Shown here one piece after another: positions 4,001-63,913 of a stretch of 64,000 nt of DNA (its first letter is position 1; the number at the start of each line of letters is the position of its first letter). The stretch comes from Bolinopsis microptera (taxonomy: Eukaryota > Ctenophora > Tentaculata > Lobata > Bolinopsidae). A model generated the notes under the pieces. It did no database searches. It was not told where the DNA came from and worked only from the letters and a program-made list of their open reading frames with translations. The DNA lies in the NCBI RefSeq assembly GCF_026151205.1, contig NC_087074.1:18613240-18677239 (forward strand), written 5' to 3'. The translations under genes and the position numbers were made by a program.

Positions 4001-4646
4001 ATAGCCACGCCCATATTTGGTCCCAATTATGCCCAATTATGCCAAATCACCTTAACATACTCAAAACCATAATTTACTTGTAGCTACTAGCCTCCTAAAC
4101 ACAGACATAAAATTGTATCAAAATTTGATTAAAATTGGCTGAGTTATGAGCAAAGTACTATGCGACCATATTTGGGAATACGCACCAAATTTGATAGATT
4201 TTATCTCATAAATTGGGTAAATATCAATATTTTTGAATGAAACCAACTTTATATGAAAGGTATAGTAAGCCTAAACTACACATTCTCTATGATTGTCAGC
4301 TCAATATCTACCTAAGTGTGGATTATGTGTTCAAATAATCGCAAAAATTGAAAAAAATCGCCCATATCTCAGTTCGTGATATTTGCGAAACTGACTTCGC
4401 TCAAAACAATAGAACCCAATAGGGTTTCAATATTTTTTCATGAAATTTTCAGAATCAAAGTGAATTGCATGATAACCTTAAGTTATGGAGTGGAATTTTG
4501 AGTTAGGCCTTTAAAACATTTGGCGGTCAAACTTTTAGAATTTGGCCACTTCTAGTAGCTACAAGCAAAGCACCCCAAAGTATGGTTTTGAGCATGTTAA
4601 AGTGATTTGGCATAATTGGGACCAAATATGGGCGTCGCGTGGCTGT
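4001..4646. mobile_element. Foldback element with about 85-95-bp inverted arms
   Basis: The left arm 4001-4090 and right arm 4552-4646 are reverse complements with few differences. Shared blocks include CATATTTGGTCCCAATTATG, ACTCAAAACCATA-like sequence and CTTGTAGCTACTAG. The left arm carries a 10-bp internal duplication (CCCAATTATG). The arms enclose about 460 bp of AT-rich non-coding DNA. Long inverted arms around a non-coding core are typical of foldback or snap-back elements. Confidence 0.75.
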
Positions 4647-8468: not shown

Positions 8469-11400
8469 GTTATTCCGTTTTCTTATCTAACTGTTTTGAT
8501 ATATCTCAGATTATTTCTAACTCGTTTCAACTCAACGTTTTACGTTATAGGCCCATATTTGGTATCAAAGAAGATAATCTAAAGGTTTTAATGTTAACCT
8601 TGTAGACTTTATATTTGAAACTATTCTAAAGGTTTTAATGTTAACCTATATTTCCAGTGATCTGGTACTGATGATTCCTGTTGCATTCTCGACGCCCTCC
8701 TTATGTAGTTCCAGTTACTGTCATCAACTGTGTTCTGGTAACCGTGGCAACACTACAACTGATAACGATGGTAGTGTAGATAAGATAGAGTGTTTCTGTG
8801 GGACTGGTTACAGTAACTCTGGTAACCCTGGTAACCCTGGTAACCCTGGTAACCCTGGTAACTCTGATGAGAATTACTGTCAGATGGATAGTACAGGAGG
8901 GCAGCTATTCGTCTGCCAAGATTCTGGTCTACTCGTCTCTAAAGGTACACTTCTTACTAACTAGCAGTGTCTTATCAATAATGCGTTTTTTAATGAGATA
9001 AGGCAGTTTAAATGCTCTGCAATTTTGTAAAAGTATTAAATCTGGCAGTTGTTGAACTGAAAACATAATAATCCTGACTTTCGTATTTTGTACTGGCTGT
9101 TATCGATACTGCGGTTTAGTTTTGAGTTTTGTTAATGAGGAGATAATGGAAATTTAAATTTTTTTACTTATCAGAACATTTCATCTAAAAGTGAAGCTAA
9201 TTCTTCCTATTATGCAGATAGGGTGTGGACTAGCTACACCTGGTTACAACGCTTCCATTCTATAACATTATACCCAATACATGAAATAGATTTGTAGTGT
9301 TGGCATTAGTTTAAAACTGAAAAAAACAATCTGATTACAGAAATGGAGGAACTATTTCTCTAGCAACTGTTACCCTAGTAACTGCTACCCTAATATAATA
9401 TGTTACTCCAGTAACTGTAACTCCCGTAATTGCAATCCCTGTAACCGTTACCCTAGCAACTCTCACACTTGTAACCCCGGTAACCGTTACTCTAGCAACT
9501 CTCACACTTGTAACCCCGGTAACCGTTACTCTAGCAACTCTAACACTTGTAACCCCTGTAACCGTTACCCTAGCAACTCTTACACTTGTAACCCCTGTAA
9601 CCGTTACCCCTGTAACTCTTACACTTGTAACCCCTGTAACCGTTACCCTTGTAACTCTTACACTTGTAACCCCTGTAACCGTTACTCTAGCAACTCTAAC
9701 ACTTGTAACCCCTGTAACCGTTACCCCTGTAACTCTTACACTTGTAACCCCTGTAACCGTTACTCTAGCAACTCTTACACTTGTAACCCCTGTAACCGTT
9801 ACCCAACTCTAACACTTGTAACCCCTGTAACCGTTACCCCTGTAACTCTTACACTTGTAACCCCTGTAACCGTTACCCTTGTAACTCTTACACTTGTAAC
9901 CCCTGTAACCGTTACTCTAGCAACTCTAACACTTGTAACCCCTGTAACTGTTACCCCTGTAACTCTTACACTTGTAACCCCTGTAACCGTTACCCTTGTA
10001 ATTCTTACACTTGTAACCCCTGTAACCGTTACTCTAGCAACTCTAACACTTGTAACCCCTGTAACCGTTACCCCTGTAACTCTTACACTTGTAACCCCTG
10101 TAACCGTTACTCTAGCAACTCTTACACTTGTAACCCCTGTAACCGTTACCCAACTCTAACACTTGTAACCCCTGTAACCGTTACTCTAGCAACTCTTACA
10201 CTTGTAACCCCTGTAACCGTTACCCTAGCAACTCTTACACTTGTAACCCCTGTAACCGTTACCCTAGCAACTCTTACACTTGTAACCCCTGTAACCGTTA
10301 CTCTAGCAACTCTTACACTTGTAACCCCTGTAACCGTTACCCAACTCTAACACTTGTAACCCCTGTAACCGTTACTCTAGCTACTCTTACACTCGTAACC
10401 CCTGTAACCGTTACCCCTGTAACTCTTACACTTGTAACCCCTGTAACCGTTACTCTAGCAACTCTTACACTTGTAACCCCTGTAACCGTTACTCTAGCAA
10501 CTCTTACACTTGTAACCCCTGTAACCGTTACCCCTGTAACTCTTACACTTGTAACCCCTGTAACCGTTACTCTAGCAACTCTTACACTTGTAACCCCTGT
10601 AACCGTTACTCTAGCAACTCTTACACTTGTAACCCCTGTAACCGTTACTCTAGCAACTCTTACACTTGTAACCCCTGTAACCGTTACCCCTGTAACTCTT
10701 ACACTTGTAACCCCTGTAACCGTTACCCCTGTAACTCTTACACTTGTAACCCCTGTAACCGTTACTCTAGCAACTCTTACACTTGTAACCCCTGTAACCG
10801 TTACCCTTGTAACTCTTACACTTGTAACCCCTGTAACCGTTACCCTAGCAACTCTTACACTTGTAACCCCTGTAACCGTTACCCCTGTAACTCTTACACT
10901 TGTAACCCCTGTAACCGTTACCCCTGTAACTCTTACACTTGTAACCCCTGTAACCGTTACTCTAGCAACTCTTACACTTGTAACCCCTGTAACCGTTACC
11001 CCTGTAACTCTTACACTTGTAACCCCTGTAACCGTTACTCTAGCAACTCTTACACTTGTAACCCCTGTAACCGTTACTCTAGCAACTCTTACACTTGTAA
11101 CCCCTGTAACCGTTACTCTAGCAACTCTTACACTTGTAACCCCTGTAACCGTTACCCCTGTAACTCTTACACTTGTAACCCCTGTAACCGTTACCCCTGT
11201 AACTCTTACACTTGTAACCCCTGTAACCGTTACTCTAGCAACTCTTACACTTGTAACCCCTGTAACCGTTACCCTTGTAACTCTTACACTTGTAACCCCT
11301 GTAACCGTTACCCTAGCAACTCTAACACTTGTAACCCCTGTAACCGTTACCCAACTCTAACACTTGTAACCCCTGTAACCGTTACCCTTGTAATTCTTAC

Positions 11401-14400
11401 ACTTGTAACCCCTGTAACTGTTACCCTAGCAACTCTAACACTTGTAACCCCTGTAACCGTTACCCAACTCTAACACTTGCAACCCCTGTAACCGTTACCC
11501 AACTCTAACACTTGTAACCCCTGTAACCGTTACCCAACTCTAACACTTGTAACCCCTGAAACCGTTACCCAACTCTAACACTTGTAACCCCTGTAACCGT
11601 TACCCAACTCTAACACTTGTAACCCCTGTAACCGTTACCCCTTATTACAGATGTAAAGTGTAACGGTGTGAATGACTGCTGGGATTACAGTGATGAGAAG
11701 AACTGTGAATGTGAGGTCAGTACTAAGACATACTTATTACTTACTGGTTTCCATGGTTACAATACTTACACAACTTGATCCCCATAAACTGGGACCCTAG
11801 TAGCACGAACAAAATTTTCAAACTCGATTCCCTTGGGAAAAGGCTGATGGTAATAGAGAAGGCTTTGTTATTTTCCGAATTATAAAAAACCGATTTTTAG
11901 ATATTACATACTAGGGACCCTATGGCCTATAGATCAAGTTTATGTTGAAAATCCGATCCCATAATTTGTTTGCACAGTCGAATGATAAAATTGCCATACT
12001 ATACAGGGATTCGTTTGTGATGGACTCTGTATTCCTTCCTCCAATGTGTGTGACTCAGTCCCTCAATGTCCACGTGCTGAAGATGAACAGTGTTGTCATG
12101 ACAATGTCACGTGTTGTCATGGTAACGCCCCTGGTAACACCCCATGTGAGTGTGACGAGGAGAAGGAGATGAAGTGTGGTGGAGGAGGGTGTGTAAGTGT
12201 TGGGAGGTGGTGTGATGGAGTACAGGATTGTACAGACAGGAGTGATGAACTGAACTGTGCAGAATTCAGGGAACACTCCTTCAAGTGCTTTCACTCTAAC
12301 AGGTAACTAGTCTGCTAGACTAGAAACTAGTCTGCTAGACTAGAAACTAGTCTGCTAGTAACTAGTCTGCTGGACAAGATATAATACTGTAATAACACTC
12401 ACATTATGTGAAATACTGTCTAGTAACATCACACTATGTGAAGTATTGATTAAGGGAAAGTGTCGACGTCTGGTTCTGTAATTGTGTTGATTGTCGTCAA
12501 TATAAAAAGTATCGCAGATATTGCAACATTGTGTGTTCGCAGTATCGGAATGTAGCAGATTTGAGGGAATAACGCGTCGGAATATGAGCACTATAATTTA
12601 GTATGTCAATATCCATATTAACAGTGTACACGTTACGTTAATTGGCAGTTCCCCCTTATGTTCCCCCTTATGTTCCCCCTTATGTTCCCCTGCTTATGTC
12701 TGCTTACAAACCTCTGTTCTTGTGCACACTAATTTCCGATAATTGGCCCTGTAAAACAGAAGTTGGTGGAATTGGGAGTTAAGGGTCAATGTCTGGATCA
12801 ATATTGTCGTGTAACTGGATTGGGGAAGGAACTTTAAAATCGAAATATCTAAAACATTTCCCTTTTTACCGTTGAAGTGGCAGGATTAAAAACATTAGAC
12901 CTTTTTTATTAACTTTTAAAACGTTGTGAACATTCTATAGGATCAAGATGAATGACTTGATTTGCACATTTAATAGTAAGTCACGTGTTTCAGTACGCGT
13001 TACATACCGTTGCTATGGAGATGTGATGGGAGATACGACTGTTCTGACTTCTCAGATGAAGCTCTCTGCTTGGTTAGTCACTAAAAGAAATGTAACATTT
13101 TAAATTGAAGAGGATTAGTTTGAGCCCATTGTGCCATCCTTTTGTTTTTAAAAGTTTCTGTAAGTTTTATTTCTGCATCTATGATTTATAGAAGCGCCGC
13201 GAATCCTCCTATCCATGCACTACTATGTGTTTTGATTTTAAACAGTACACCTAAATTAAATAGAAACGTAAATTTGAAATAAACAAATGACAACATTTTA
13301 GATAAATGACAACATTTTCTTAGTAAGGTACAGTTTGGCACAGTGTTCTAAACTATTAGTTTAATATCGTGGTAAGATGTGATAGGGGGAGGGGTATTGT
13401 TTCACAATATCGGTAGAAACAATGACCCGGACATATCGGAAGTAAGGGGAGTAAAACTACCCCCCACATTGTCCCCCCACTTCTCCCATTCTCTCAAACT
13501 CCCCCCATTTCTCTGGCTCCTTTCTTCCTGCCATTGTTTCTGTGTTTTGTTTCAAACTGGGGGGTGTTGTACTGGGTAAATGGGTAATGTGTCAGTGGTT
13601 AGGTAATGTGTGTATATTAGTGCCTGTAGTGCAGTTTAGTGAGTTAGTAGTGCAGTTTAGTAAAGTTACAGTTTAGTAGTGTAGGTTAGTAAAGTTACAG
13701 TTTAGTAGTGTAGGTTAGTAAAGTTACAGTTTAGTAGTGTAGGTTAGTAACTACAATTTGTTGCTTCCCTTAATTAGCTTATTTCCGCGTTTACACTCCA
13801 CGCCTGTTTGCTACTTCTAATTAATAACACTCCGAGTGACTTAATTAATAACACACTGCCTGGTTGGTTGGGGACCGGCCCGAAGTACCAGCCAATGTTT
13901 ACTCAAAAAATAATATATACAAATATAATAAGTGTTATCAATTCAAACTCAAAACTCACACAAGATTAGATCTCATTAAAACGATTAAAATGTATATAAT
14001 GGAGCTTGTCGAACAAAACATAGCTGAGCACATATAAAGTTGCCTTTAGTTGAAATTATCATATTAATGCGCTTTTAGAGTTGTTAGAGTGGAAACAGGC
14101 GCCTAGCTACGGCTAGCTAGCTATTCCAAAATTTAAAAATTTAACGACTGTTATCAGTCGCATAGCGTCATGCCGTTTTTGCTGGCGAATTGATGGCAGT
14201 GTAACTGAGATGGTATGCAGTGAAATTGATTCTGTGATGGCGTGCTTATGGTATTGAGACAGAGTTATTATTAGCATTACGGTTGATGTTGCGCTCTGAT
14301 TTCCTTAGTCCCGTTATATTGTATACTCCAAATTGATAACCACTCCGAGTGACTTAATAACACTCCGACTTGATAACCACTCCTGAAATTAACCTGAAGG

Positions 14401-20400: not shown

Positions 20401-23400
20401 ATACTCAGTACTCACAACATATCACTAGTTCACCACCTTCAAAATTATCCTAAATTCCTTTTGTTTTATTTGTAGAGATTTTAATTATTATTGTATAAAT
20501 TGGCATCAAATTGATAACCTTAAACATTGTTTAACTTAAATAACGTTTTTTAACTGACTAACCTCCCACAGTTGGAATGCTCGGAATGCTCCTCAGACCA
20601 GATCTCCTGTGACAGCTCCTGCCTGCCTCTCCTTCTCCGCTGTGACGGTGAGAACGACTGTAGTGATGGTAGTGATGAGACAGACTGTGTCTCGCCACAC
20701 TGTTCACCTTCCCACTTCATGTGCTTATCTGGAGCTTGTATAGATAAGCACTACAGATGTGATGGTAGTCGTGATTGTAGTGATGGGTCTGATGAGGATA
20801 ACTGTTCTGTCTGCTCTCTCTCCCATTTCCTCTGTGATACTGGACTCTGTCTCGATCAGGTCGGTGATGTTAATACATAATCATTAAATATTAATTGCAG
20901 CTGGCTAATGCCTCGATAATTTAACTTAATTGAAAGTTTTAAAACAATAACTCGGCCACGTATGGGGAAATGACGAAGTTTACTTGTCCAATTATTTCAT
21001 TCGTTCTTCACTGATTACAGCTGATAAAATGATAACCATCAACAACTCTCTAAATCTGCAGGAGAGTGTGTGTAACGGAGTAGATGAGTGTGGAGACGGT
21101 TCAGACGAGAGAGGGTGTGACCAGGACCCTGTTAACGAGTGTCTCTCCCGTCCCTGTGATCTGGAACATGGCCAGTGTGTAGATCTGAGACTTGGCTACT
21201 ACTGTTCCTGCGATCAGGGCTACGAACTGGCCCTTAACAAGAAGTACTGTATTGACACTGACGAGTGTGACTTGAAAGTACATGCCAGACAGTGTACCCA
21301 GCTGTGTTACAATACTGTGGGTGGGTTCGCGTGTGGGTGTGTAGCGGGCTACTCTCTAGATCGTAGAGATCATGTGACGTGCCGCGCGGACACGCCCTTA
21401 TCTTATCTCCTGTTATCTCACCACTCCGTCTACTCCCTCTCTGAGGTGTCCTACTATAACCACAGTAGAGAGCTTGTGTTGTACGACCTACCAGACTCAG
21501 TGCACCACATAGCTACTCACATCACATCTACCTCCACCTTGCTCTACACTGCTGAGGGAAGCTCTATTAAACGTTACGTCCTGCCCCCGCTCACTCTGGA
21601 TACCAGCCTAACCAAACCCACCCTGAATAGGAGGACGTTAGAGAACGTGCACGTGTCCTCTTTAGCAGTGGACTGGAGTACAGGCAACTTGTACTGGAGT
21701 GACCCGGTTTTAGGAGAAATAAAGCTGTACTCCCCGCCTAGTGGCCCCTCGGTTAGTGTGGTCAGTACTCACTGTGACAAAGTCAGAGGACTAGTGCTAC
21801 TCCCACAGCGGGGTAAGATGTACTTTATACACGTGTATCAGGGTGTATCTCAGATAGCAGAGACTGGACTAGATGGAACTAGGCGGAGGAGAGTAACAGG
21901 ACGGGGAGAGATGGTCTCACACTTTGATATTGATCACATCACCACTACTCTCTACTACTTCTCATCCTACTGTGCCGACCCTGAACATGACTTCTGTATG
22001 TACAAGATTGAGCTGCAGTATCCTACTCCTAAAACACAGCTACTGGAAAGTGGAGATTTAATGCCATATGAAATACTGACTGGTTTCAGAGCTTTTGGAT
22101 CTCATCGCTATATGGCTATGTCCAGGCGAGGGGTGCTGGATTGTAAACTTTACCAAGGTTGGGACTGCAGACAGCTTACTACAAACGAGACCGAATATAC
22201 TGATATCCTGTTCTTATCTCCACTCTCTCAGCCTCTTCTTGAGAACGCTTGCGGAGTAGACACGTGTGGGGAGGGGGCTGTTTGTGTAAACACAGCAGTA
22301 GATGCATTAGGTACTCAACTACACACTGCCTGTGTGTGTGCAGGTAAAGATGAAGTGTACGAGAAAGGGAAGTGTAAGGCAGTGGAGAGCAGGTGTGATG
22401 AGGAGATCTACTTCTCCTGTCAGTCTGGAGGGTGTATAGAGACAAGGTTTAAATGTGACCATGTCAGGGACTGTACTGATGGAAGTGATGAGATGGGGTG
22501 TGAGGAGTTCCATTGCAACGACCTGGTCCAATTCTCCTGTCGTAATGGTAACCAATGTGTCCCTATAGAGAGACGGTGTGATGGTTTTAAAGACTGTGCT
22601 GATAACTCTGATGAAGACTCCTGTACCTCTTCTCTGTGTGCAGAGTCTGAGTTTCTTTGTAACAGCACTAAGACCTGTATACCGGAGTTGTGGAGATGTG
22701 ATGGAACTGAAGATTGTTTGGAAGGGGAGGATGAGAAGGGTTGTTGTCATGGTAAGGAGGAGGGATGTGAAGAGTGCAGCGGGTTCCAGTGTCTCAACAA
22801 CAACAAGAGACTACAGTGTTACTCTGACAGTGTAGTGGGGGACGGTAAAGTGGACTGTTATTACAGTGTGGATGAGGACAAGTCTGAGATGAGATGTGAG
22901 GGTGGCACCTTCCTGTGCAACTCTCTGTGTTACCCTGACAACTGGCGGTGTAATGGCGAAGTGGACTGTGGTGATGAGGAGTCATGTGAGATGTCATGTG
23001 ATCAAGATCATGGGTTATTCGGGACACGGTGTGTGTCCAACTCCCTAATGTGTGATGGGTGGAGGGACCTAGAGGGAGGGGAGGACGAGGAGGGCTGTTT
23101 TGTGTCATGTGACCTGAACTACCTCTCCTGTAACGGGATGTGTGTCCCGAGTGACTCCGACTGGCTCTGTGAGGGGTATTGTGGCGAGGAAGTGATCAGT
23201 CTCATCCACCAGATCCAGAGGGGGTGCAAGTGTGGTGTCTCCCAGAGACAATGTAAGAGCGGGAGATGCCAGGACGCCAGTTTCTGGTGTGATAAGGAGG
23301 TGGATTGTTTACATGAAGATGATGAGGTATGGTGTCCAGGATCTAACTGTGCTCCTCCTGATTTCTGCTGTTCCTACTCCGGGAGAATACTAAGGGACAG

Positions 23401-25156
23401 TGTGGGAGTGTGTGACGGTGCGGATGACTGTTTGGATGGGAGTGATGAGTTGTTGTGCCCTGCAGTCTCCTATCCTCAATGTGCTCCTGAAGCTTACGAC
23501 TGTGAAACTGATGAGACCCTTGAGGAGAGATGTATATTTGCTCCAAAGTGCGATAACAGCACTGCGCACCAGAGACATGTGTGTACTAACCAGCGGGACA
23601 TTATGCGCTGTAACCATGGAGACCCTTGCAGCGCAAATAACGGCGGATGCGCGCAAGTGTGTAACCCTCTCCCAGATAACACTAGACAGTGTTCCTGTTT
23701 CCTGGGTTATTATCTAGACAGTGACGGACGCACGTGTAAAGATATAGACGAGTGTAAAGATCCTAACACGTGTAGCCAGGTGTGTACTAATCTGAAGGGA
23801 AGTTACACGTGCAGTTGTATAGCAGGGTTTGTCAAGTGGGGAGGCGATGGCAGCAGCTGTAAACTTCAGTCAGGGCCCACTCAGGTACTGATATCCACCG
23901 AGTTCGATATGAGGATCTCATCTCCCACCTCTCTCACCAAGGTTACCTCCGGTGAACGAGCCTCCTTCAAATTCTCCTTCTACTCAGCAGAAATTGGTAA
24001 CTATTACTTCGTAGTGGGGATTGTGGACAACTACAAACTCTACAAGCTGGTGGACTCCCAAGAGGTGTTTGTAACGGAACTAGAGGGTCGTGTAGCTGAT
24101 CTGGAGTATAACCCACTCACTAATAACATAGTTTACTGCAACTCTTACTCAGTTAACATCCTGTCTCTTAACCGGACCCTCGCTTCCACCACCGTCTACA
24201 CAGACATTGTCCGGCCGGTACAAAAACTAGCTCTCAGTCCCCGGTCCGGACTCATATTCTACACCAGGAACTGGATGTTGGGAGTGATGAAGAGTGATGG
24301 ATCGGTTAGCAAGTACCTCGCAACAGATAACAGTGATATGAGGACCTACCAGTTTAAAGACGGCCGAGTAACGAGTATTTCAGTGGACGAGCCTGCTAAA
24401 AGAGTGTACTGGTACGACTCCGATCTCCAGCAACTCTCCTCCGCCTCCTACTCCGGTAGAAGAGTTAAAACAGTGCTCAGTAAACTAAAGCACGTGCAAC
24501 AGATCAGAGTGTTTGGGGACCACGTGATATACCACACAGGGAAGGATTTATGGAGTGTGGAGAAGAGAGGGAGGAGTGTGAGTGTGAGGAGAGAGTTCCT
24601 GTTACCTAGGTGCTCTCACATCAGTGTAGTGACCAAGTCTCCTGCTGTCTTAGACAAGTGCAGAGAGTGTGGTGTGTGTTTGATAGATGAGGGAGCTGGG
24701 CCAGCTTGCTACAGTAAACATGACAACACGTGTGAGTGTGTTAATGGTGGCAAGTGTAATGTCACTACTGGAGGGGAGATGGTGTGTGAGTGTCTTCCCG
24801 GTTACCATGGTGACACGTGTGATTTACTGAACAATGGGTCCAGGTCCCATTCTTTAATCGATATAGTAGTTGCGATAGTGGTGCTTCTTTTCGTATTAGC
24901 GTTGATAGCGCTGTGTTTCATATGTAAGCGAAGAAACTTACTGTCTAAGTTCAAAGACTTTTTAACAGGTAAACTGTTCAAAGTGCCTCCTTCAGTGAGG
25001 TACAGTAGGCATACCAGTTCAGTGACTACTAACAATAACAGTGTAGAGTATGGTATTTTCAATGAGGCCTGTGAGGAGTATGACTTAGAAGAAATGAACA
25101 CAGACCAGTGCCATCTTATGGAGGATAATTTAGAGGATCACGAGGATGTCATCTAG
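6013..25156 (+). CDS. LRP-like multidomain receptor gene (LDLa, EGF, YWTD propellers, TM)
   Basis: Giant type I membrane receptor of the LDL-receptor-related family, acting at the cell surface in ligand uptake or signalling. Exons read by eye: 6013-6076, 6532-6673, 6828-6928, 7098-7230, 7438-7578, 8238-8468, 8658-8944, 11651-11715, 12007-12302, 12994-13072, 17427-17562, 17996-18138, 18256-20023, 20165-20314, 20572-20859, 21062-25156; about 2700 residues. Order: signal peptide, propeller, EGF, about seven LDLa, EGF, propeller, EGF, ten LDLa, two EGF, propeller, EGF, about ten LDLa, two EGF, propeller, EGF, one TM, a tail of about 75 residues. All junctions keep phase except for two single-base losses (about 18590 and 20308). 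A propeller before the first LDLa cluster recalls LRP5/6, whereas the LDLa clusters recall LRP1/2, so no orthologue is named. A start at 15641 could make a shorter form. Confidence 0.85.
8103..8216 (+). promoter_or_regulatory. Intronic cluster of three CACGTG E-boxes with CCAAT-like words
   Basis: Within the intron just before exon 6, ACCACGTG occurs three times in about 100 bp. Between and after the boxes are GACCAATCTAA and ACCAACCTATCAGA. The same E-box plus CCAAT arrangement recurs at 50977-51030 and 52100-52153. CACGTG binds bHLH-zip factors and CCAAT binds NF-Y in animals. A regulatory role is inferred only. Confidence 0.45.
8658..13072 (+). CDS. LRP-like exons 7-10: EGF module and first LDLa cluster
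   Basis: Exon 7 (8658-8944) ends the propeller and encodes a cysteine-rich EGF-like module with an inserted Gly-Asn-Pro run (GNP repeated four times, then GNS), followed by the first half of an LDLa repeat. Exon 8 (11651-11715) supplies the second half with the signature [16 protein letters not shown], so intron 7 splits an LDLa domain. Exon 9 (12007-12302) holds a degenerate and a good LDLa ([16 protein letters not shown]), and starts another that ends in exon 10 ([16 protein letters not shown]). Exon 10 ends in phase 0, matching exon 11 at 17427. If the exon 10 donor is not used, the frame reads LVSH and stops at TAA (13082-13084), giving a soluble product of about 516 residues. Confidence 0.75.
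9358..11640 (+). repeat. 2.3-kb intronic minisatellite, 39-bp and 35-bp units
   Basis: The array fills most of intron 7 and stops about 10 bases before the splice acceptor of exon 8. The main unit is 39 bp and a shorter 35-bp variant is interspersed and becomes predominant at the 3' end. Each unit carries GTAACCCCTGTAACCGTTAC, and most carry GTTACNCTAGCAAC. The 5' end is more diverged than the middle, as expected for an expanding array. Because 39 is divisible by 3, two plus-strand frames stay open within runs of 39-bp units, but there is no ATG and the 35-bp units break them. Confidence 0.95.
12303..12375 (+). repeat. Short tandem repeat at the exon 9 donor
   Basis: ACTAGTCTGCTAG-type words (about 20-bp unit) repeat four times, starting within the donor-proximal intron sequence just after 12302. 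Each unit is a partial palindrome, so the nascent intron could form a hairpin at the 5' splice site. Confidence 0.75.
15068..15511 (-). CDS. Uncharacterised 147-residue frame antisense to LRP intron 10
   Basis: An ATG-initiated intronless frame of 147 residues. The N-terminus is lysine-rich (KKQEKKK) and the middle is basic with a short hydrophobic RLLVLL. The C-terminal third is rich in Thr, Asn and Ser with several NxT/S sequons. No signal peptide, domain or known family was recognised. Its start lies 129 bp from the divergent exon at 15641, so the two could share a bidirectional promoter. No polyadenylation signal was seen close downstream. It may be a real small gene, a retrocopy or a chance frame. 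Confidence 0.35.
   Translation of the reverse strand: MGISADKKQEKKKMPVKDYNLRRVSAEIFEIRSVDRSMCTAFSRGVSKTRLLVLLSANKSARQTIKTKIPALTVRNLHPLFKYFAGGSRPETVTTCNLTYQISGADILFQEGFHSVTRTDPAPRSINLNINTTYPGFTASNTTLNLL
15641..15697 (+). CDS. Putative alternative first exon encoding a signal peptide
   Basis: ATG followed by 18 codons encoding [19 protein letters not shown], a textbook signal peptide, and then the strong donor GTGAGT. The exon ends in phase 0, which is exactly what exon 11 (17427) needs. The joined product would run from the signal peptide straight into an LDLa repeat, the usual N-terminal layout of LRP1/LDLR-type receptors. I infer an internal promoter, giving a receptor of about 2210 residues without the first propeller. 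The alternative is that two adjacent genes meet here, the upstream one stopping after exon 10. Confidence 0.55.
17427..18138 (+). CDS. LRP-like exons 11-12: LDLa repeats
   Basis: Exon 11 (17427-17562, phase 0 to 1) encodes a canonical LDLa repeat ([16 protein letters not shown]). Exon 12 (17996-18138) encodes another with an unusually long loop before its DE pair ([13 protein letters not shown]) and starts the next, completed in exon 13 by [16 protein letters not shown]. Both have clean AG acceptors and GTAA donors. Confidence 0.85.
18256..20023 (+). CDS. LRP-like exon 13: EGF, second propeller, EGF and LDLa cluster, with a frame break
   Basis: A long exon. The first part (frame beginning TGT at 18256) ends an LDLa and encodes an EGF-like module ([13 protein letters not shown]) and the first propeller strands ([14 protein letters not shown]). 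That frame stops at 18637-18639. From about 18600 the next frame continues the propeller without loss ([18 protein letters not shown], then [15 protein letters not shown]), so one base is missing near 18590-18600. After the propeller come an EGF ([17 protein letters not shown]) and LDLa repeats with the acidic signature, for example [16 protein letters not shown] and [16 protein letters not shown]. The exon ends in phase 2 at the donor before 20024. Confidence 0.85.
20165..20314 (+). CDS. LRP-like exon 14: LDLa repeats, with an apparent missing base at its 3' end
   Basis: Starts in phase with exon 13 (AG plus G gives Arg) and encodes [17 protein letters not shown] and then [11 protein letters not shown]. 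The final codons read GAG ATG AG before the donor, which leaves phase 2, whereas exon 15 requires phase 0. One extra G (GAG GAT GAG) would give the expected calcium-binding DE of the LDLa repeat and also repair the phase. So a single-base loss near 20308 is the simplest reading. Confidence 0.75.
20572..20859 (+). CDS. LRP-like exon 15: two full LDLa repeats and the start of a third
   Basis: An exon of exactly 96 codons, phase 0 at both ends, after a good acceptor (ACCTCCCACAG). It encodes LDLa repeats with [16 protein letters not shown] and [16 protein letters not shown], then the first half of the next repeat ([11 protein letters not shown]), completed in exon 16. The calcium-ligand residues (D..D..DE) are intact. 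Confidence 0.9.
21062..25156 (+). CDS. LRP-like exon 16: two propellers, LDLa cluster, EGFs, TM and tail
   Basis: A 4.1-kb uninterrupted terminal exon, ending in TAG. Order: LDLa half ([16 protein letters not shown]), an EGF and a calcium-binding EGF (DTDECD), propeller 3 ([19 protein letters not shown]), an EGF, about ten LDLa of varying quality, an EGF ([12 protein letters not shown]), a calcium-binding EGF ([11 protein letters not shown]), propeller 4 ([19 protein letters not shown]), an EGF (CECVNGGKC) and a TM helix ([19 protein letters not shown]) followed by stop-transfer KRR. Several LDLa in the third cluster have lost the CDG or SDE signature. The tail lacks NPxY but has NSVEY, a YGIF Yxx-hydrophobic sorting motif, LL after RRN, and an acidic end. 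The large exon suggests intron loss. Confidence 0.9.
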   Translation, partial: ESVCNGVDECGDGSDERGCDQDPVNECLSRPCDLEHGQCVDLRLGYYCSCDQGYELALNKKYCIDTDECDLKVHARQCTQLCYNTVGGFACGCVAGYSLDRRDHVTCRADTPLSYLLLSHHSVYSLSEVSYYNHSRELVLYDLPDSVHHIATHITSTSTLLYTAEGSSIKRYVLPPLTLDTSLTKPTLNRRTLENVHVSSLAVDWSTGNLYWSDPVLGEIKLYSPPSGPSVSVVSTHCDKVRGLVLLPQRGKMYFIHVYQGVSQIAETGLDGTRRRRVTGRGEMVSHFDIDHITTTLYYFSSYCADPEHDFCMYKIELQYPTPKTQLLESGDLMPYEILTGFRAFGSHRYMAMSRRGVLDCKLYQGWDCRQLTTNETEYTDILFLSPLSQPLLENACGVDTCGEGAVCVNTAVDALGTQLHTACVCAGKDEVYEKGKCKAVESRCDEEIYFSCQSGGCIETRFKCDHVRDCTDGSDEMGCEEFHCNDLVQFSCRNGNQCVPIERRCDGFKDCADNSDEDSCTSSLCAESEFLCNSTKTCIPELWRCDGTEDCLEGEDEKGCCHGKEEGCEECSGFQCLNNNKRLQCYSDSVVGDGKVDCYYSVDEDKSEMRCEGGTFLCNSLCYPDNWRCNGEVDCGDEESCEMSCDQDHGLFGTRCVSNSLMCDGWRDLEGGEDEEGCFVSCDLNYLSCNGMCVPSDSDWLCEGYCGEEVISLIHQIQRGCKCGVSQRQCKSGRCQDASFWCDKEVDCLHEDDEVWCPGSNCAPPDFCCSYSGRILRDSVGVCDGADDCLDGSDELLCPAVSYPQCAPEAYDCETDETLEERCIFAPKCDNSTAHQRHVCTNQRDIMRCNHGDPCSANNGGCAQVCNPLPDNTRQCSCFLGYYLDSDGRTCKDIDECKDPNTCSQVCTNLKGSYTCSCIAGFVKWGGDGSSCKLQSGPTQVLISTEFDMRISSPTSLTKVTSGERASFKFSFYSAEIGNYYFVVGIVDNYKLYKLVDSQEVFVTELEGRVADLEYNPLTNNIVYCNSYSVNILSLNRTLASTTVYTDIVRPVQKLALSPRSGLIFYTRNWMLGVMKSDGSVSKYLATDNSDMRTYQFKDGRVTSISVDEPAKRVYWYDSDLQQLSSASYSGRRVKTVLSKLKHVQQIRVFGDHVIYHTGKDLWSVEKRGRSVSVRREFLLPRCSHISVVTKSPAVLDKCRECGVCLIDEGAGPACYSKHDNTCECVNGGKCNVTTGGEMVCECLPGYHGDTCDLLNNGSRSHSLIDIVVAIVVLLFVLALIALCFICKRRNLLSKFKDFLTGKLFKVPPSVRYSRHTSSVTTNNNSVEYGIFNEACEEYDLEEMNTDQCHLMEDNLEDHEDVI

Positions 25157-31230: not shown

Positions 31231-31399
31231 TGATCTGAGAGACACTCTCCTCACGTGACCAGAGAACCACGTGTCACGTGACCAGAGAACCACGTGTCAC
31301 GTGACCAGAGAACCACGTGTCACGTGACCAGAGAACCACGTGTCACGTGACCTGAGAACCACGTGACCTGAGAACCACGTGACCTGAGAACCACGTGAT
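31231..31399 (+). promoter_or_regulatory. Tandem array of 13 CACGTG E-boxes
   Basis: A 23-bp unit (CACGTGACCAGAGAACCACG then TGT) repeats about four times, then shortens to an 18-bp unit with CCTGAGAACCA. By my count CACGTG occurs 13 times in about 170 bp. The junctions create GTCACGTGAC, which is the CLEAR-type palindrome bound by TFEB/MITF and compatible with Myc/Max or USF. It lies 0.4 kb past the end of NOC4L and 3.2 kb upstream of CTU2. Function is inferred; it may simply be a minisatellite that captured an E-box. Confidence 0.6.
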
Positions 31400-38225: not shown

Positions 38226-38312
38226 AACCGTAATCCCAACCCTAACCCTAACCACAACCCCGAAGCTATCCATAACCCTTACCACAACCCTAACCCTAAC
38301 CCGAGCCCTAAG
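38226..38312 (+). repeat. Degenerate interstitial telomere-like repeats
   Basis: Several CCCTAA units (ACCCTAACCCTAACC twice) mixed with variants such as CCATAACCC and CCGAGCCC. CCCTAA is the C-strand of the animal telomere TTAGGG. An interstitial relic or a coincidental simple repeat; not a chromosome end, since unique sequence follows on both sides. Confidence 0.6.
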
Positions 38313-53949: not shown

Positions 53950-55800
53950 TCAGCAGAGGCCAGAGACTACAGTTCAAGTCCTGCAACCCGAGACAGCAGA
54001 GATTACAGCTCAAGTCCAGTTACTCGAGACAGCAGAGATTACAGCTCAAGTCCAGTTACTCGAGACAGCAGAGACTGCAGCTCAAGTCCAGTTACTCGAG
54101 ACAGCAGTGACTACAGCTCAAGTCCAGTTACTCGAGACAGCAGAGATTACAGCTCAAGTCCAGTTACTTGAGACAGCAGAGATTACAGTTCAAGTCCAGT
54201 TACTCGAGACAGCAGAGATTACAGCTCAAGTCCAGTTACTCGAGACAGCAGAGATTACAGCTCAAGTCCAGTTACTCGAGACAGCAGAGATTACAGCTCA
54301 AGTCCAGTTACTCGAGACAGCAGAGACTACAGTTCAAGTCCAGTTACTCGAGACAGCAGTGATTACAGCTCAAGTCCAGTTACTCGAGACAGCAGAGACT
54401 GCAGCTCAAGTCCAGTTACTCGAGACAGCAGAGACTGCAGCTCAAGTCCAGTTACCCGAGACAGCAGAGACTACAGCTCGAGTCCAGTTACTTGAGACAG
54501 CAGAGATTACAGTTCAAGTCCAGTTACTCGAGACAGCAGAGATTACAGCTCAAGTCCAGTTACTCGAGACAGCAGAGATTACAGCTCAAGTCCAGTTACT
54601 CGAGACAGCAGAGATTACAGCTCAAGTCCAGTTACTCGAGACAGCAGTGATTACAGCTCAAGTCCAGTTACTCGAGACAGCAGAGACTGCAGCTCAAGTC
54701 CAGTTACTCGAGACAGCAGTGATTACAGTTCAAGTCCAGTTACTCGAGACAGCAGAGATTACAGCTCAAGTCCAGTTACTCGAGACAGCAGAGATTACAG
54801 CTCAAGTCCAGTTACTCTAGACAGCAGAGTCTACAGCTCAAGTCCAGTTACTCGAGACAGCAGAGATTACAGCTCAAGTCCAGTTACTCGAGACAGCAGA
54901 GATTACAGCTCAAGTCCAGTTACTCGAGACAGCAGTGATTACAGCTCAAGTCCAGTTACTCGAGACAGCAGAGACTGCAGCTCAAGTCCAGTTACTCGAG
55001 ACAGCAGTGATTACAGCTCAAGTCCAGTTACTCGAGACAGCAGAGACTGCAGCTCAAGTCCAGTTACTCGAGACAGCAGAGACTACAGCTCAAGTCCAGT
55101 TACTCGAGACAGCAGAGATTACAGCTCAAGTCCAGTTACCCTAGACAGCAGTGATTACAGCTCAAGTCCAGTTACTCGAGACAGCAGAGACTGCAGCTCA
55201 AGTCCAGTTACTCGAGACAGCAGTGATTACAGCTCAAGTCCAGTTACTCGAGACAGCAGAGACTGCAGCTCAAGTCCAGTTACTCGAGACAGCAGAGACT
55301 GCAGCTCAAGTCCAGTTACTCGAGACAGCAGAGACTACAGTCTACAGCTCAAGTCCAGTTACTCTAGACAGCAGAGACTGCAGCTCAAGTCCAGTTACTC
55401 TAGACAGCAGAGACTACAGCTCAAGTCCAGCTACTCGAGACAGCAGAGACTACAGCTCAAGTCCAGTTACCCGAGACAGCAGAGACTACAGTTCAAGTCC
55501 AGTTACTCGAGACAGCAGAGACTACAGCTCAAGTCCAGTTACTCGAGACAGCAGAGACTACAGCTCAAGTCCAGTTACCCGAGACAGCAGAGACTACAGC
55601 TCAAGTCCAGTTACTCGAGACAGCAGAGATTACAGCTCAAGTCCAGTTACTCGAGACAGCAGAGACTACAGCTCAAGTCCAGTTACTCGAGACAGCAGAG
55701 ACTACAGCTCAAGTCCAGTTACTCGAGACAGCAGAGACTGCAGCTCAAGTCCAGTTACTCGAGACAGCAGAGACTGCCCTCGTTACAATCCAGCAGAGAC
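53950..55800 (+). repeat. 36-bp minisatellite with XhoI-like CTCGAG in most units, about 50 copies
   Basis: The unit is AGTTACTCGAGACAGCAGAG then ATTACAGCTCAAGTCC. Because 36 is a multiple of 3 all forward frames stay open for long stretches, giving 12-residue repeats (for example SSSPVTRDSRDY, TAQVQLLETAEI). Each frame is broken somewhere: CAGTGA in one, ACTTGA in another, CTCTAG in the third, and a 7-bp insertion at about 55339-55345 shifts all of them. I therefore treat it as non-coding, although the 3' part (about 54500-55819) would suit a repetitive disordered protein. Confidence 0.9.
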
Positions 55801-55819: not shown

Positions 55820-58800
55820 AGTGTTGAGAGTATTACTCGCTATTCTAATAAGACCAAATGCTGGCTGATATATACAGCACACGGTATACAGAGGAATCTA
55901 CACCTTCAGTTCCCTCTATAGTTTATACTAGTTCCTTGATTAACGTTGAAATATTCCCGATTACACCGAGTAGAATGTTAATTATTTCTCCACAGGTTCG
56001 CTTACCAACTCACCACTTTGTTGTATTTTGTTCAGTTATTTTGCAGTTATAGTTCCGCTGTTAATTGTAATTACGTGCAAGCTTACAAGGTCATCACTTC
56101 GCTACAGTTGCCTGCACGGTAACTTGCACGGCACTTGCTGAAAGAGCATCTGCGTGAACAATTGCATCGTGTTTGGAAGTGAACTAGATAGCAGATACAG
56201 CTTCATCACTGGTTACACTTACACGATTACACTTTTCCAAATTTGGCTGTCAAAAGCATCCGAAAGTCGGCGATTCTCTTTTGAATAAGTCTTGTGTCCG
56301 AATTTATGTAAATTTTCTTATTTTGCCGCAATGATTTCTTGGAACTGGAAGAAGTTGACAGGGTTTCCAGATCCCAGGGATTAGATGGATGTTTGGTCAC
56401 ACTATTGGAAGGACATCTGTAAACCAACTGCCAAACTGCACTCTGGATTCAAAAAGAATACCAGTTGCGGCTTCAGATCAGAGTTATTTGGTCGGATAGT
56501 CTCTTCAAGCTGCTCTCCTTCTCAGAGTTTGTTTGGCGACTGTTCTTTCAAAATTCCGGACATCGTGAAACGAAAGTCCCGTCAGAAACATGTGAGCTAA
56601 ATGTTGAAGGTGCAAGCTCTGCAACCTGCAGAAGTCCGAGCGCTTCTGTATTTGTAGGTTGTGAGGTACAGGTGTTTAGCTTTCCAACTCATCTTTAGTC
56701 CTCTCGGCACTTGCTCACCCACTTAGCTGCTCTATTACAGCCCACGCTTTAGTTGTGGTGCAGGCTCCAAGCTGGCCAGCTCACTAATACCTGTACCCGG
56801 CTGGGCTGCTCACCCAGGCTGGACTGCTCACTATAAGATCACTAACACGCCAGCGTGGTGTTCGTGACCGGGTATTGAGATCGTGACTGCTTTGCTGAGC
56901 ATTGTTCCTCCCCAGCCTTTCATTAACCGATCTGTAGCGCTGATTGTCGTCAAGTGGTTCAACTGCCCACCACTCACAGCCTCGGACCGAAGTCACGTGC
57001 TGGAATTCCACCATACACTGGCCAGGAACAATATCACGTGACAAGGATTAACCAGTCGGTCGAAACAGTCGAGATAGGCTCCGTTGGATGTGAACCCGAA
57101 AAAGGCGCTCAGTTTACCAAGTAATTGTTAAATTGCAGCAAATCTGTCACGAATGAGGCGGATATGTGTGGATTAAAAGAGTCATCCAGTTGTCATGACA
57201 ACTTATTACTGGTTAGTCTACTTCGCCCGTCAGTCTGCTTGTGAGCCTAATTTTAGAACACAAATATTTACAGGACCTAGGTTTAGTTCGTTAGTTAGAG
57301 ACCGTAATCGCTAGGACATATTTACAGGCCTTGTGTAAAGAACTAATAACTAGATCAAACAGGACAATTTAGGGTAATTTAAACAGAATGGTACCCTAAT
57401 TAGATAGCTTATTGCACAGTATCCCCCATATGTTTGCCGGATATTACAAGGGTTGAGATAGTCAGTGCGCATACAATGCTTCTTCATCCTGTGGGCTCAC
57501 AATGGTTACTGCCTGCTGATGCCGACCGCCTGTTGACTGCCTGCGGAGTATCATCCTCAAAGTAGCAGATCTCGGTAAAACTAAACAGACTCGTTCTTTT
57601 GTTGCGATTTTGGTCAAATCAGCAGCAGGGTTTGTACATATTTTACTAATTGATAATCTTTGACATTCTTTTAAAGTGGTCTTTTAGGCTCATCATTTGT
57701 AACTTATTGATCGCAGCTGAAGTTTGACAGACCCAACGCCGTTTAGCTTTTTCCAAGAATATTATCACATGTTCTTTTGCATATTTTAGTAATTGATGAT
57801 GTTTGTCATGCCTATAAAGAGATCTCCAGCCCTCATCATTTCTTACTAATACTATTGATCGCAGCTGGAGGTTGACACCCACCACTGTTTGCTTATACCG
57901 AAAGTCTCATTACACAACACTAAGTTTTAACATCACCTGGTTTTAATATTACCTGGTTTAAAACTCCAGTAAAATTCCTCTTTCTGTCCCTCTCATCGGA
58001 CGTATTTGCTACATCGGACGTATTTGCTCATCGGACGTATTTGCTACCCGACGTATTTGCGACAAATCTTGTGCAAGCTGACTATCAGTTGTCGCCGAGG
58101 GTTTAAATCGTACCGACGTCATCAATAAAACACGACGTGATGCCCAAATATGGGTATAATCGTCTAATTACTGTTATTACCGTCTAATTACTGTCCAATT
58201 ACCGCTGCTATCAGTCCAAAAGTTCTGCTGACCACCTAATTGGTCGGCTACTTACTGGTCAACATTGCTGATTGTTCGAGCTAAACCGTCATTAAAATAA
58301 CAATGGGTACTACTGGGCTGATCTGCATTTTCAGTAAATACTCGTCCCCAGCCCCACTGTCACTCATCACTTATCAGATATAGTATTTTGGAGTTATGTT
58401 ACATACTATTCCTATTCTATTTCTTAGTTCTTGGTTTTGTCTGCGATCGTTAACCGTAACATTAGAGTAGAGCTACTTAACCGATACTCATGACGTGTTC
58501 ATTATTTCTGGAGATCACTCCATCATCACCTTGACCATCCAAAAATTTTCATCTGATAATATCCAGAGTGGTATGGTTTTGACCATTTGGCCTGTTCAGG
58601 TTGCCATATTGATGTCTTTCTGAAGATAACGCTGAGCACATACTTTAACTTTGAGTAATGTATTCCCTGATCCCTCGCATTGTTCTTTAGAAAGTTAATC
58701 ATCAAACTAATTCATGTACTATTTTATGTGCGGTTTGCATATTTATACTATGTGTATTTTCTCATCCAAATTCAAAATTTGATAATTCAAGAAATTGTTA

Positions 58801-61537: not shown

Positions 61538-63913
61538 GCTATACTCAGTTCCAGCTGTTCGGGGAAATGGAGATCATGATCAAGCCACCGTCATTAACTT
61601 CAATTGATCCAGCTGAATATAACTACACGTTTAGATTTGCCATACCTACAGTAAGTTACCAGCAGTCACCAGATTAGTATCCAGATTAGTAACCAGTTAC
61701 CAGATCAGTAACCAGATTAGTAACCAGATTAGTAACCAGATTAGTAACCTACCTGATCAGTAACCAGTTACCAGATCAGTAACCAGATTAGTAACCAGAT
61801 TAGTAACCAGATTAGTAACCTACCTGATTAAAGATGACAGATAACAGCCGTGATAAAACCCATCTATGGTATAAACCGAGATTCTGATAAAATCTAGAAT
61901 ATATTATAGCTGTGATGAGAACTACTAAGAAAGCAATTCCCCGGTCAATGATTTTAACCTAAAATTGAACCGAAATTGAACCCAATCGGGCAGCCGGCGA
62001 CGGCTGTCAAAGACTTAACCGTTTACTCATCATTTCCCAAACCACTCCTCCCTTCAAGAGAACAAGCGGTTTGGGAGAGTCTCTTGCTTTTACTCCTCCA
62101 CAAAATTAATTACAGCCGAATTTATCATCATATTCCAGGATCGTGATTTCAGAATTTGATTTATAATAGGAACAGAGAGTGAGCCCGGTCATCTGGTGAA
62201 ACACCCCAACAGACCTGGGTCACGTGATGCCCAAATATGGCTGTAATCCCGGGAATAGTCTGTCTTCCTCGGGCAATTACCGCCAGCATATCCGGTCAAT
62301 TTATGAGCAATTAGCGACCGATTTCTCGTAAATAGAGAAAGAGATCCTGCTATTTTCAACCTATTAATAAGTCTCGGATCAAACCTCGCTAAACAGATTC
62401 GAAGCTATTTGTGATACTTCCCCGTTGACCCATTATTATGCCTTTTTAGTTAGCATATTTTGATCTTTATAACACTGATTACTATGATACGTCTTCATTA
62501 TTTGACGGGCCGATTTCTTAAATGCTAAACGATTAAAAGTATAAAAATGTGTTGCGAATGCCGAATAGAGAGACTTCTGTTTCAAGGCATACACTTCAAC
62601 AGGAGTGTCAAACTATAGAATTATTTCAGTGTTGAATATTAATAATATCAACCCTGTCCAGTGTGCACTATTCGCCACACAGTGTTTATCAGACATTGTG
62701 ATTTCAAAGCTCAGTGTTCGTAGTATATGCATCTTTTATTGTGATTTTAACTACCATGTGACCAATCTTAAAACCATTGTATCGCTCACAGTTTTCTTAA
62801 AACTGTCCAAAAGTTAAGAAGATCGGTTCTTTCTACAAAATTGTTCAGATCTTTGGGAATCAAATCTTGAACATGTTCGTCACATGATCCGTAAGCACAA
62901 CAGATGGACATTGCACATTGCACATTTCACAATTCACATTGCACATTGCACATTGCACATTGCACATTGCACATTGCACATTGCACATTGCACATTGCAC
63001 ATTGCACATTGCACATTGCACATTGCACATTGCACATGATGATTGTTAATGAAACTAACTTCACCCTCTTAATCTAGCACATCAAGTGGAAGCTGAACAT
63101 GTCTGATACACAGGAAACACCCGTACTGGAATCACAGTCTGGTAAGTAGTCTGGTATTCTCAGAGAGATTATTTGAGTTTTAATGTTAGGTGAAAATACC
63201 AGTGTTGCAGTCCGCTCTTTTACTCGCACAGCGGCATGTATCTGACTAAAACCACCCGGTCAGATCCTAGTAAAGACACGGTACTTTACCGGAACCATTC
63301 GCATGTTATTTATCGCTGCAGCGCATCCGGCAAAATTGATTTAATTTACAGCTTATATTGCAAAATCGCATATTTAAACCTTTTAAAACATATCCTTGCG
63401 TTTCACATATTATGCTACAAATACTTATGCTTCATTCAGAGACATATTATGAGCTCTATCTAATTATTTCCTCGTGAATCCGACAGGCCAAAAAAATGTG
63501 TACTGATAAAAAACTGCATTGACACAATCCCACGTCAATTTCTTTTAAATAAATCTAACGTAAAACTAAACTTACGCATTAGTCTTATAAAATATATTAC
63601 AAAGGCCATCTCAGTCAGGAAATCTATACAATAAACTCCGGGTCGAATTGAAACAATAAAATCATTTATCAATCCGTACAAAGCGACTCAACCCGACAGC
63701 TATCTACACACTATGTAATATATAATAATAATACAGTAGATATTATGATACAGTACACTTAAAATGAACTACAATTTTCCGAGTAAATAACCGAGCTCTC
63801 TTGTCTCAACCGTTTCCACTGCAATTATTGAGTACAAATGAGGACCACAGGATGTTGGCGTTGCGGTGATATTGCTCGGCTGTTTTGCTTTGTTCGTGCT
63901 GATAGGAACAAAG
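61538..63913 (+). CDS. Partial gene: three exons of a probable single-pass membrane protein
   Basis: Three splice-bounded open segments in matching phase: 61538-61650 (acceptor CTGACAG, donor GTAAGT), 63078-63141 (acceptor TCTAG, donor GTAAGT) and 63843-63913 (donor GTAAAA). Together they encode about 82 residues. The first exon reads YTQFQLFGEMEIMIKPP and then EYNYTFRFAIPT, which looks like beta-strands of an extracellular domain with an NYT glycosylation site. The second is hydrophilic with another NMS sequon. The third encodes VGVAVILLGCFALFVLIG, a clear transmembrane helix followed by lysine. So the C-terminal, probably cytoplasmic, part lies beyond the right edge, and 5' exons (signal peptide) lie upstream, unlocated. 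The acceptor of the third exon (ATGAG) has a poor pyrimidine tract. Family not recognised. Confidence 0.6.
61655..61832 (+). repeat. Tandem repeat AGATTAGTAACC in an intron
   Basis: Words AGTAACCAGATT recur about nine times, organised as a higher-order duplication of about 71 bp. It starts only a few bases after the donor at 61651, close to the 5' splice site. Confidence 0.9.
62909..63037 (+). repeat. 8-bp microsatellite CATTGCAC
   Basis: About 14 units, with a few variants (CATTTCAC, AATTCAC) at the 5' end. It lies in the intron 40 bases before the acceptor of the exon at 63078. Confidence 0.97.

Follow-up and report, generated by a model that had tools for sequence, protein, structure and literature searches.

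Can a tandem array that repeats a transcription-factor-like site dozens of times within an intron act on its host gene, or is it one of many similar repeats in the genome? This question is raised by a 64,000-nucleotide stretch of the ctenophore Bolinopsis microptera (the window, C3:18613240-18677239), which we analysed against a searched genome of 264.65 Mb in 232 contigs. The plus strand of the window carries a large LRP-like receptor gene, and one intron of this gene, lying between the two halves of an LDLa domain, contains a minisatellite whose units hold inverted GTTAC/GYAAC half-sites resembling the X-box bound by RFX proteins. An initial annotation placed this array at 9358..11640, and these coordinates proved right when checked with Tandem Repeats Finder (TRF) and by cutting the array into units. 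The account we consider probable is that of a minisatellite in an intron of the LRP-like gene, likely neutral, which belongs imperfectly to a class of repeats built on an X-box core and spread over the genome.

The array was cut into units at every GTTAC, which gave 59 units in addition to a final stub that runs into the exon. Forty-eight units are 39 bp long and nine are 35 bp, with one unit each of 33 and 45 bp, and TRF reported 57.6 copies of a 39-mer at 9430-11640, preceded by a more diverged part that begins at about 9360. The array shows the features of a minisatellite: its head-to-tail units of 39 and 35 bp lie within the usual range of about 10-100 bp, their total length of 2.28 kb exceeds the customary 0.5 kb, and variant units occur in duplicated blocks, as produced by unequal exchange. 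When the 57 regular units were coded by sequence, they formed 15 types, and the longest repeated block comprised nine units and was present twice, a length reached by none of 1000 shuffled unit orders; the array therefore appears to have grown by block duplication. The array is known from one assembly, and all genome matches to its unit lay inside it (29 by a method that may skip common words, 31 with a 24-base word).

On the plus strand the array contains 60 GTTAC, 134 GTAAC and 29 GCAAC half-sites. Nearly every unit had been said to carry GTTAC and GYAAC 4 bp apart; this is true of 47 of the 59 units, with the centres TCTA/GCAAC in 20, CCCT/GTAAC in 14, CCTA/GCAAC in seven, CCTT/GTAAC in four and singletons in two, but not of the other 12, which are the nine 35-mers (4 bp shorter), two units with GTAAT and one with GCTAC. 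A second inverted pair, GTAACCGTTAC, which was absent from the initial annotation, occurs 55 times. Three array units folded no better than shuffled sequences (RNA z -0.81, single-stranded DNA z +0.85), a result on which we rejected a reading of the array as a hairpin or RNA structure, and Rfam gave no match in the window at gathering scores.

We then compared the units with several forms of the X-box. Passages of PMC3414849 and PMC10530576 give the human RFX1 site as GTNRCC-N0-3-RGYAAC with the half-site GTTRCY, and the form GTTRCY-N0-3-RGYAAC is our own merge of the published half-site and spacing. The strict nematode-type consensus GTHNYYATRRNAAC was used as given in the initial annotation; a search of open-licence papers found it in none of them. 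It has no exact match in the array. The proposed single mismatch to it was found at 28 plus-strand sites (29 when the minus strand was scanned as well), but the GTTACCCCTGTAAC class of array site is three bases off. When units were dinucleotide-shuffled, sequences as close to GTHNYYATRRNAAC arose per 2000 in 7 cases for the TCTAG unit, 13 for CCTAG, 801 for CCCTG, 172 for CCTTG and 822 for the 35-bp unit, so that the CTAG-centred units beat their shuffles but the CCCTG, the 35-bp and largely the CCTTG units do not. For the 14-bp palindrome GTTRCYATRGYAAC the corresponding numbers were 0, 1, 79, 7 and 338, which puts the CCTTG unit above chance and leaves the CCCTG unit borderline.

The merged form GTTRCY-N0-3-RGYAAC, with its inverted half-sites 0-3 bp apart, matched 29 of the 59 units (the other 30 lack it). 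A background of 221.7 kb, made up of window and random sequence, gave one such place, and only 5-7 of 3000 shuffled units matched the form (5-9 of 3000 for either form). The strict GTNRCC-N0-3-RGYAAC form gave 10 array sites against 12 matches on both strands of the 221.7-kb background, and the TCTAG unit did not match it. These results support, at the sequence level, a real RFX resemblance in about half of the units, at which weak RFX binding could occur. The dozens of RFX-like sites envisaged initially are nevertheless copies of one site; since the units are copies, the resemblance counts as one or two independent events. The initial annotation is partly supported; something real was seen, and a plausible factor was guessed. 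The array can be explained without RFX binding, which is therefore not needed.

Genome-wide counts place the array in a wider context. The palindrome GTTRCYATRGYAAC was found at 4,045 places, compared with 30 for its mirror image (the same letters backwards), a 135-fold excess. Replacing the AT centre by TA reduced the count to 47 against 9 for the mirror control, and one extra centre base gave 217 against 14. The CT centre, the class of the array, gave 512 (263+249) against 15 (9+6), of which 28 are the array's own according to the unit table. Exchanging the outer G and C left 9 against 24. From these controls it follows that the excess is far largest with the X-box outer bases, spacing and AT centre, although some excess is also seen for the half-sites when the centre differs. 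The sites are clustered: the first 100 GTTRCYATRGYAAC matches listed, covering 1.25 Mb of C1, fell into 20 places, and the 47 TA-centred sites into 25. With an arbitrary AAT flank there were 147 sites against none in the control, and the first 100 matches listed formed 57 places. Among the matches listed, 26 of 53 AAT-flank places on C1-C9 lay within 2.1 Mb of a contig end, where 20% were expected (p 2.5e-6), with the limit chosen after the list was seen and nearness to a contig end serving only as a stand-in for nearness to a telomere. The core word of the array, GTTACYCTAGCAAC, occurred at 58 places (control 2), 27 in the array and 31 outside it. Four groups of these outside sites belong to tandem arrays, with periods of 15 bp on C3, 24 bp on C2, 26 bp on C9 and 28 bp on C7.

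For context, 20 of the places on C1 with GTTRCYATRGYAAC were examined. Their cores lie in repeats with periods of 20, 21, 22, 24, 31, 33, 39, 53 or 91, or beside other repeats; some of these repeats have only about two copies, and L055, L057, L058 and L060 appear single. With stretches dense in half-sites masked, 15 of the 20 loci had no flank match in about 0.3 Mb compared. The flank matches left were L042 with L059 (one 53-bp family), L051 with L052 (one 57-bp piece), and L058 with the random sample L038. A mobile-element (MITE-like) family as source of the core would be expected to leave common flanks around the dispersed copies, and these few matches are the ones seen. Of 78 pairs of unit remainders outside the core, two were alike (p<0.01), and one of the two consists of copies of the 53-bp family; 13 of 15 units entered this comparison, two with remainders shorter than 7 bases were omitted, and short remainders give it little power.

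These observations suggest the following history. A short stretch with inverted GTTAC/GTAAC half-sites would have seeded the unit, which would have grown by duplication of single units and of multi-unit blocks, as the repeated block indicates. The array would be spliced out with its intron and would most likely be neutral for the gene. Its core would be an imperfect form of GTTRCYATRGYAAC, the 14-bp palindrome that fits the RFX X-box and is hugely over-represented in the genome, and that appears to recur in minisatellites whose other unit sequence is mostly without likeness. A further step, in which a process tied to the full palindrome turns single X-boxes into arrays and makes the X-box a common minisatellite core, is a tentative and rather unlikely proposal; its agent would perhaps be RFX or another bound protein in germline cells.

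Several observations weigh against our preferred account. The A found in the centre of the dominant genomic X-box is missing from the centre of the array's sites. Before masking, BLAST matched 33 pairs among the 20 loci, mainly through cores and arrays, several loci share ACTAGT-like bases beside the core, and two units in L051 have ACTACTA in common; the other X-box arrays may not be independent of one another. The longer word GTAACCGTTACCC of GTAACCGTTAC was found at four places outside the array (control 1); since it is hardly found elsewhere, part of the array unit is private and GTAACCGTTAC is not a genome-wide core. Among the minisatellite units of a 224-kb sample, GTAAC/GTTAC occurred in 14 of 135 against 6.5 expected, a 2.2-fold enrichment whose p of 0.007 is uncorrected over about 512 words and which stood fourth in the list; ranked above it were GGTTA (17 against 6.0) and the unrelated AGGAG (16 against 5.5). 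The 222 kb of background contained no GTTAC-N4-GTAAC, yet six pairs at a 7-base gap, and this empty background indicates that dense X-box sites are restricted to a minority of regions. Finally, the neutrality that we regard as most likely is argued from an absence of evidence.

We also searched the genome for RFX proteins. The RFX DNA-binding domain PF02257 was matched on C9 (E 1.3e-22) and C4, and the C9 domain (C9:5271502) aligned over 61 residues with that of human RFX1 (1dp7; E 2.3e-24), so that, to judge by sequence, an RFX1-like DNA-binding domain is encoded in the host genome. B9 genes are RFX targets in other organisms, and we took them as a stand-in for ciliary promoters, with PF07162 matches on C1, C5, C9 and C15. 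For the C9 B9 gene, the 1.5 kb upstream of its apparent start contained no X-box within one base. The C15 copy has one exact X-box, lying between two B9 matches, and in the C1 stretch a single site that differs at one base lies downstream of the match. No upstream X-box was found in the B9 stretches, which is a weak negative, only the C9 5' end being mapped.

These data bear on whether the RFX-like sites of the array form a functional cluster, serving as an intronic enhancer or as a sink for the host RFX protein. The concentration of merged-form matches in 29 units, the conserved domain in the genome, and two exact consensus sites about 100 and 470 bp downstream of the array all speak for such a role. 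Exact GTHNYYATRRNAAC sites in the window amount to six rows at four places, against 0.63 rows expected, and none of 100 shuffles reached six. However, the dominant AT centre occurs in no unit, 30 of 59 units have no site, the LRP-like gene shows no sign of being ciliary, and the B9 stretches, with 1.5 kb covered for C9 and the other 5' ends unmapped, gave no upstream X-box. As a sink, some 29 weaker sites would be unlikely to titrate much beside 4,045 better X-box words elsewhere. A functional cluster is therefore improbable in our judgement. The likeness to an X-box might instead be a coincidence, in which an ordinary minisatellite arose from a seed that held GTTAC and GTAAC by chance, was fixed once and was then copied. 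The units being copies, their per-unit chance of about 0.2-0.7% counts once; there was a wide choice of consensus motifs to try, 31 of 59 units do not match the nematode-type consensus even when one base may differ, and the private half GTAACCGTTAC recurs almost nowhere else. The genome-wide counts weaken this account, with the AT-centred word at 135 times its mirror control and the same 14-mer in arrays of other periods on other contigs, and we regard it as unlikely, though less so than a functional cluster. GTAACCGTTAC also presumably resembles a Myb-type site, a reading that we rejected because GTAACCGTTACCC is hardly found elsewhere.

The position of the array raises the question of splicing. 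As first annotated, it ends about 10 bp from the acceptor, and in our coordinates 10 bp of intron follow its last base. Array length could accordingly be imagined to tune splicing of the split-LDLa exon through donor-like GTAAC words, of which the sense strand has 134, and branch-like CTAAC words near the acceptor. CTAAC, a possible branch-site sequence in the 35-bp units, is present in all nine 35-mers and in six of the 48 39-mers, the last lying about 40 nt from the AG, and there is no AG between 11430 and 11648 (about 220 nt). The last unit alone, however, would supply these signals whatever the array length, so that copy number need not matter, and we think such tuning very unlikely. Least probable of all, to the point of being barely credible, is a coding repeat exon in which 39 bp stand for 13 codons. 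A plus-strand frame is open from 9335 to 10159 with an acceptor-like TTACAG at its start, but the reading frame changes with every 35-bp unit, a stop appears after two such changes, and the longest array frames (405 codons on the plus strand and 339 on the minus strand) do not span the array. These frame breaks exclude a coding repeat over the whole array; at most a short part could be exonised. The neutral intronic minisatellite with an imperfect X-box core is thus the explanation we prefer. The features of the window are collected in Table 1.

Table 1. Positions of the array, its gene context and exact X-box sites in the window
Feature	Position	Strand	Remarks
(GTAACCCTG)6 repeat in the exon preceding the array	8813..8866	+	read as GNP repeats
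Array-bearing intron	8945..11650	+	phase 1; 2,706 bp with the array, about 423 bp in its absence
Minisatellite with inverted GTTAC/GYAAC half-sites	9358..11640	+	59 units, mostly 39 or 35 bp; 2.28 kb
Diverged 5' edge of the array	9358..9445	+	odd units of 33 and 45 bp
Five consecutive 35-bp units	11458..11632	+	no N4 site and no AG; each with CTAAC, the last at 11610
Exon carrying the second half of the split LDLa	11651..11715	+	
Following intron	11716-12006	+	291 bp
Exact GTHNYYATRRNAAC in the next intron	11747..11760	-	about 100 bp past the array
Exact X-box consensus	12113..12126	+	within the LDLa-bearing open frame 11989-12306
Exact X-box consensus	24801..24814	-	in the LRP-like gene, inside its large open frame 20951-25156
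Perfect palindrome GTTGTCATGACAAC	57189-57202		exact GTHNYYATRRNAAC

The host gene encodes LDLa, EGF and calcium-binding EGF domains according to Pfam, and inspection of its translation by eye adds propeller stretches of YWTD type and, near 25 kb, a membrane span; from this domain content we classify it as LRP-like. The array occupies 84% of its intron, which is bounded by the donor AAAG/GTACAC and the acceptor TTATTACAG/ATGTAAAG, with the acceptor AG at 11649-11650. The intronic position and the split LDLa domain are both supported by the sequence, since the splice sites in phase 1 join exons whose peptide unites the two halves of the domain (PF00057, E 6.5e-8). At least one coding exon lies upstream of the array, as counted with the gene start unmapped. 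From the intact splice sites and the frame, we infer that the array is removed with the intron. GTAAC words are also repeated in open frames of the gene, in the GNP repeat at 8813-8866 and in HGN with CATGGTAAC at 12113-12140, and therefore the word is not restricted to non-coding DNA. GTTACCATGACAAC, a relative of GTTGTCATGACAAC, is present at 12113 on the minus strand and in the random samples L033 and L035.

Other repeats were observed in the window. A further array of GTAACC/GTTACC words with periods from 12 to 71 bp lies at 61663-61828. A second large minisatellite at 53961-55775 consists of 50 copies of the 36-mer CAGAGACTACAGCTCAAGTCCAGTTACTCGAGACAG, and its region includes an open frame, possibly coding, in which DSRDYSSSPVTR-like repeats extend over 443 codons. 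At 31251-31398, tandem units of 23 and 16 bp are built on the E-box-like palindrome CACGTG, a transcription-factor-like core; CACGTG is over-represented in the background sample, which includes this array. Degenerate AACCCT repeats at 38226-38311 resemble interstitial telomere-type sequence.

Compared with known systems, the array is like an RFX X-box in its inverted GTTRCY/RGYAAC half-sites at X-box spacing, and the word that abounds across the genome agrees with GTTGCCATGGCAAC in its half-sites, its outer bases and its AT centre. X-boxes lie near the transcription starts of ciliary genes, typically as a single upstream site, as passages of PMC10530576 and PMC3414849 describe; the array sites, by contrast, stand in tandem, in an intron, with CT replacing AT. 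Differing units with one short core recall a second system. Human minisatellites have a common G-rich core, described by Jeffreys, and a further likeness to them is the location of 26 of the 53 sampled X-box places near contig ends, whereas the core in this genome is a palindrome that is richer in AT and coincides with a transcription-factor site. The cyanobacterial HIP1, a highly iterated palindrome, is likewise a single short word in vast excess throughout a genome; unlike it, the present word belongs to an animal genome, often stands in tandem arrays, and is 14 bp long with degenerate positions. Judged by titles and the starts of abstracts, no paper on minisatellites with an X-box core was found among the open-licence PubMed Central papers that our searches listed, up to 20 for each.

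A single intronic minisatellite is ordinary, but a 14-bp transcription-factor palindrome at 4,045 places that recurs in differing arrays is not. Such a genome would make it testable whether bound transcription-factor sites seed tandem duplication, and also how RFX regulation keeps working amid so many sites. If the arrays are indeed driven by X-boxes, they would represent a new kind of minisatellite core signal, one set by a transcription-factor site.

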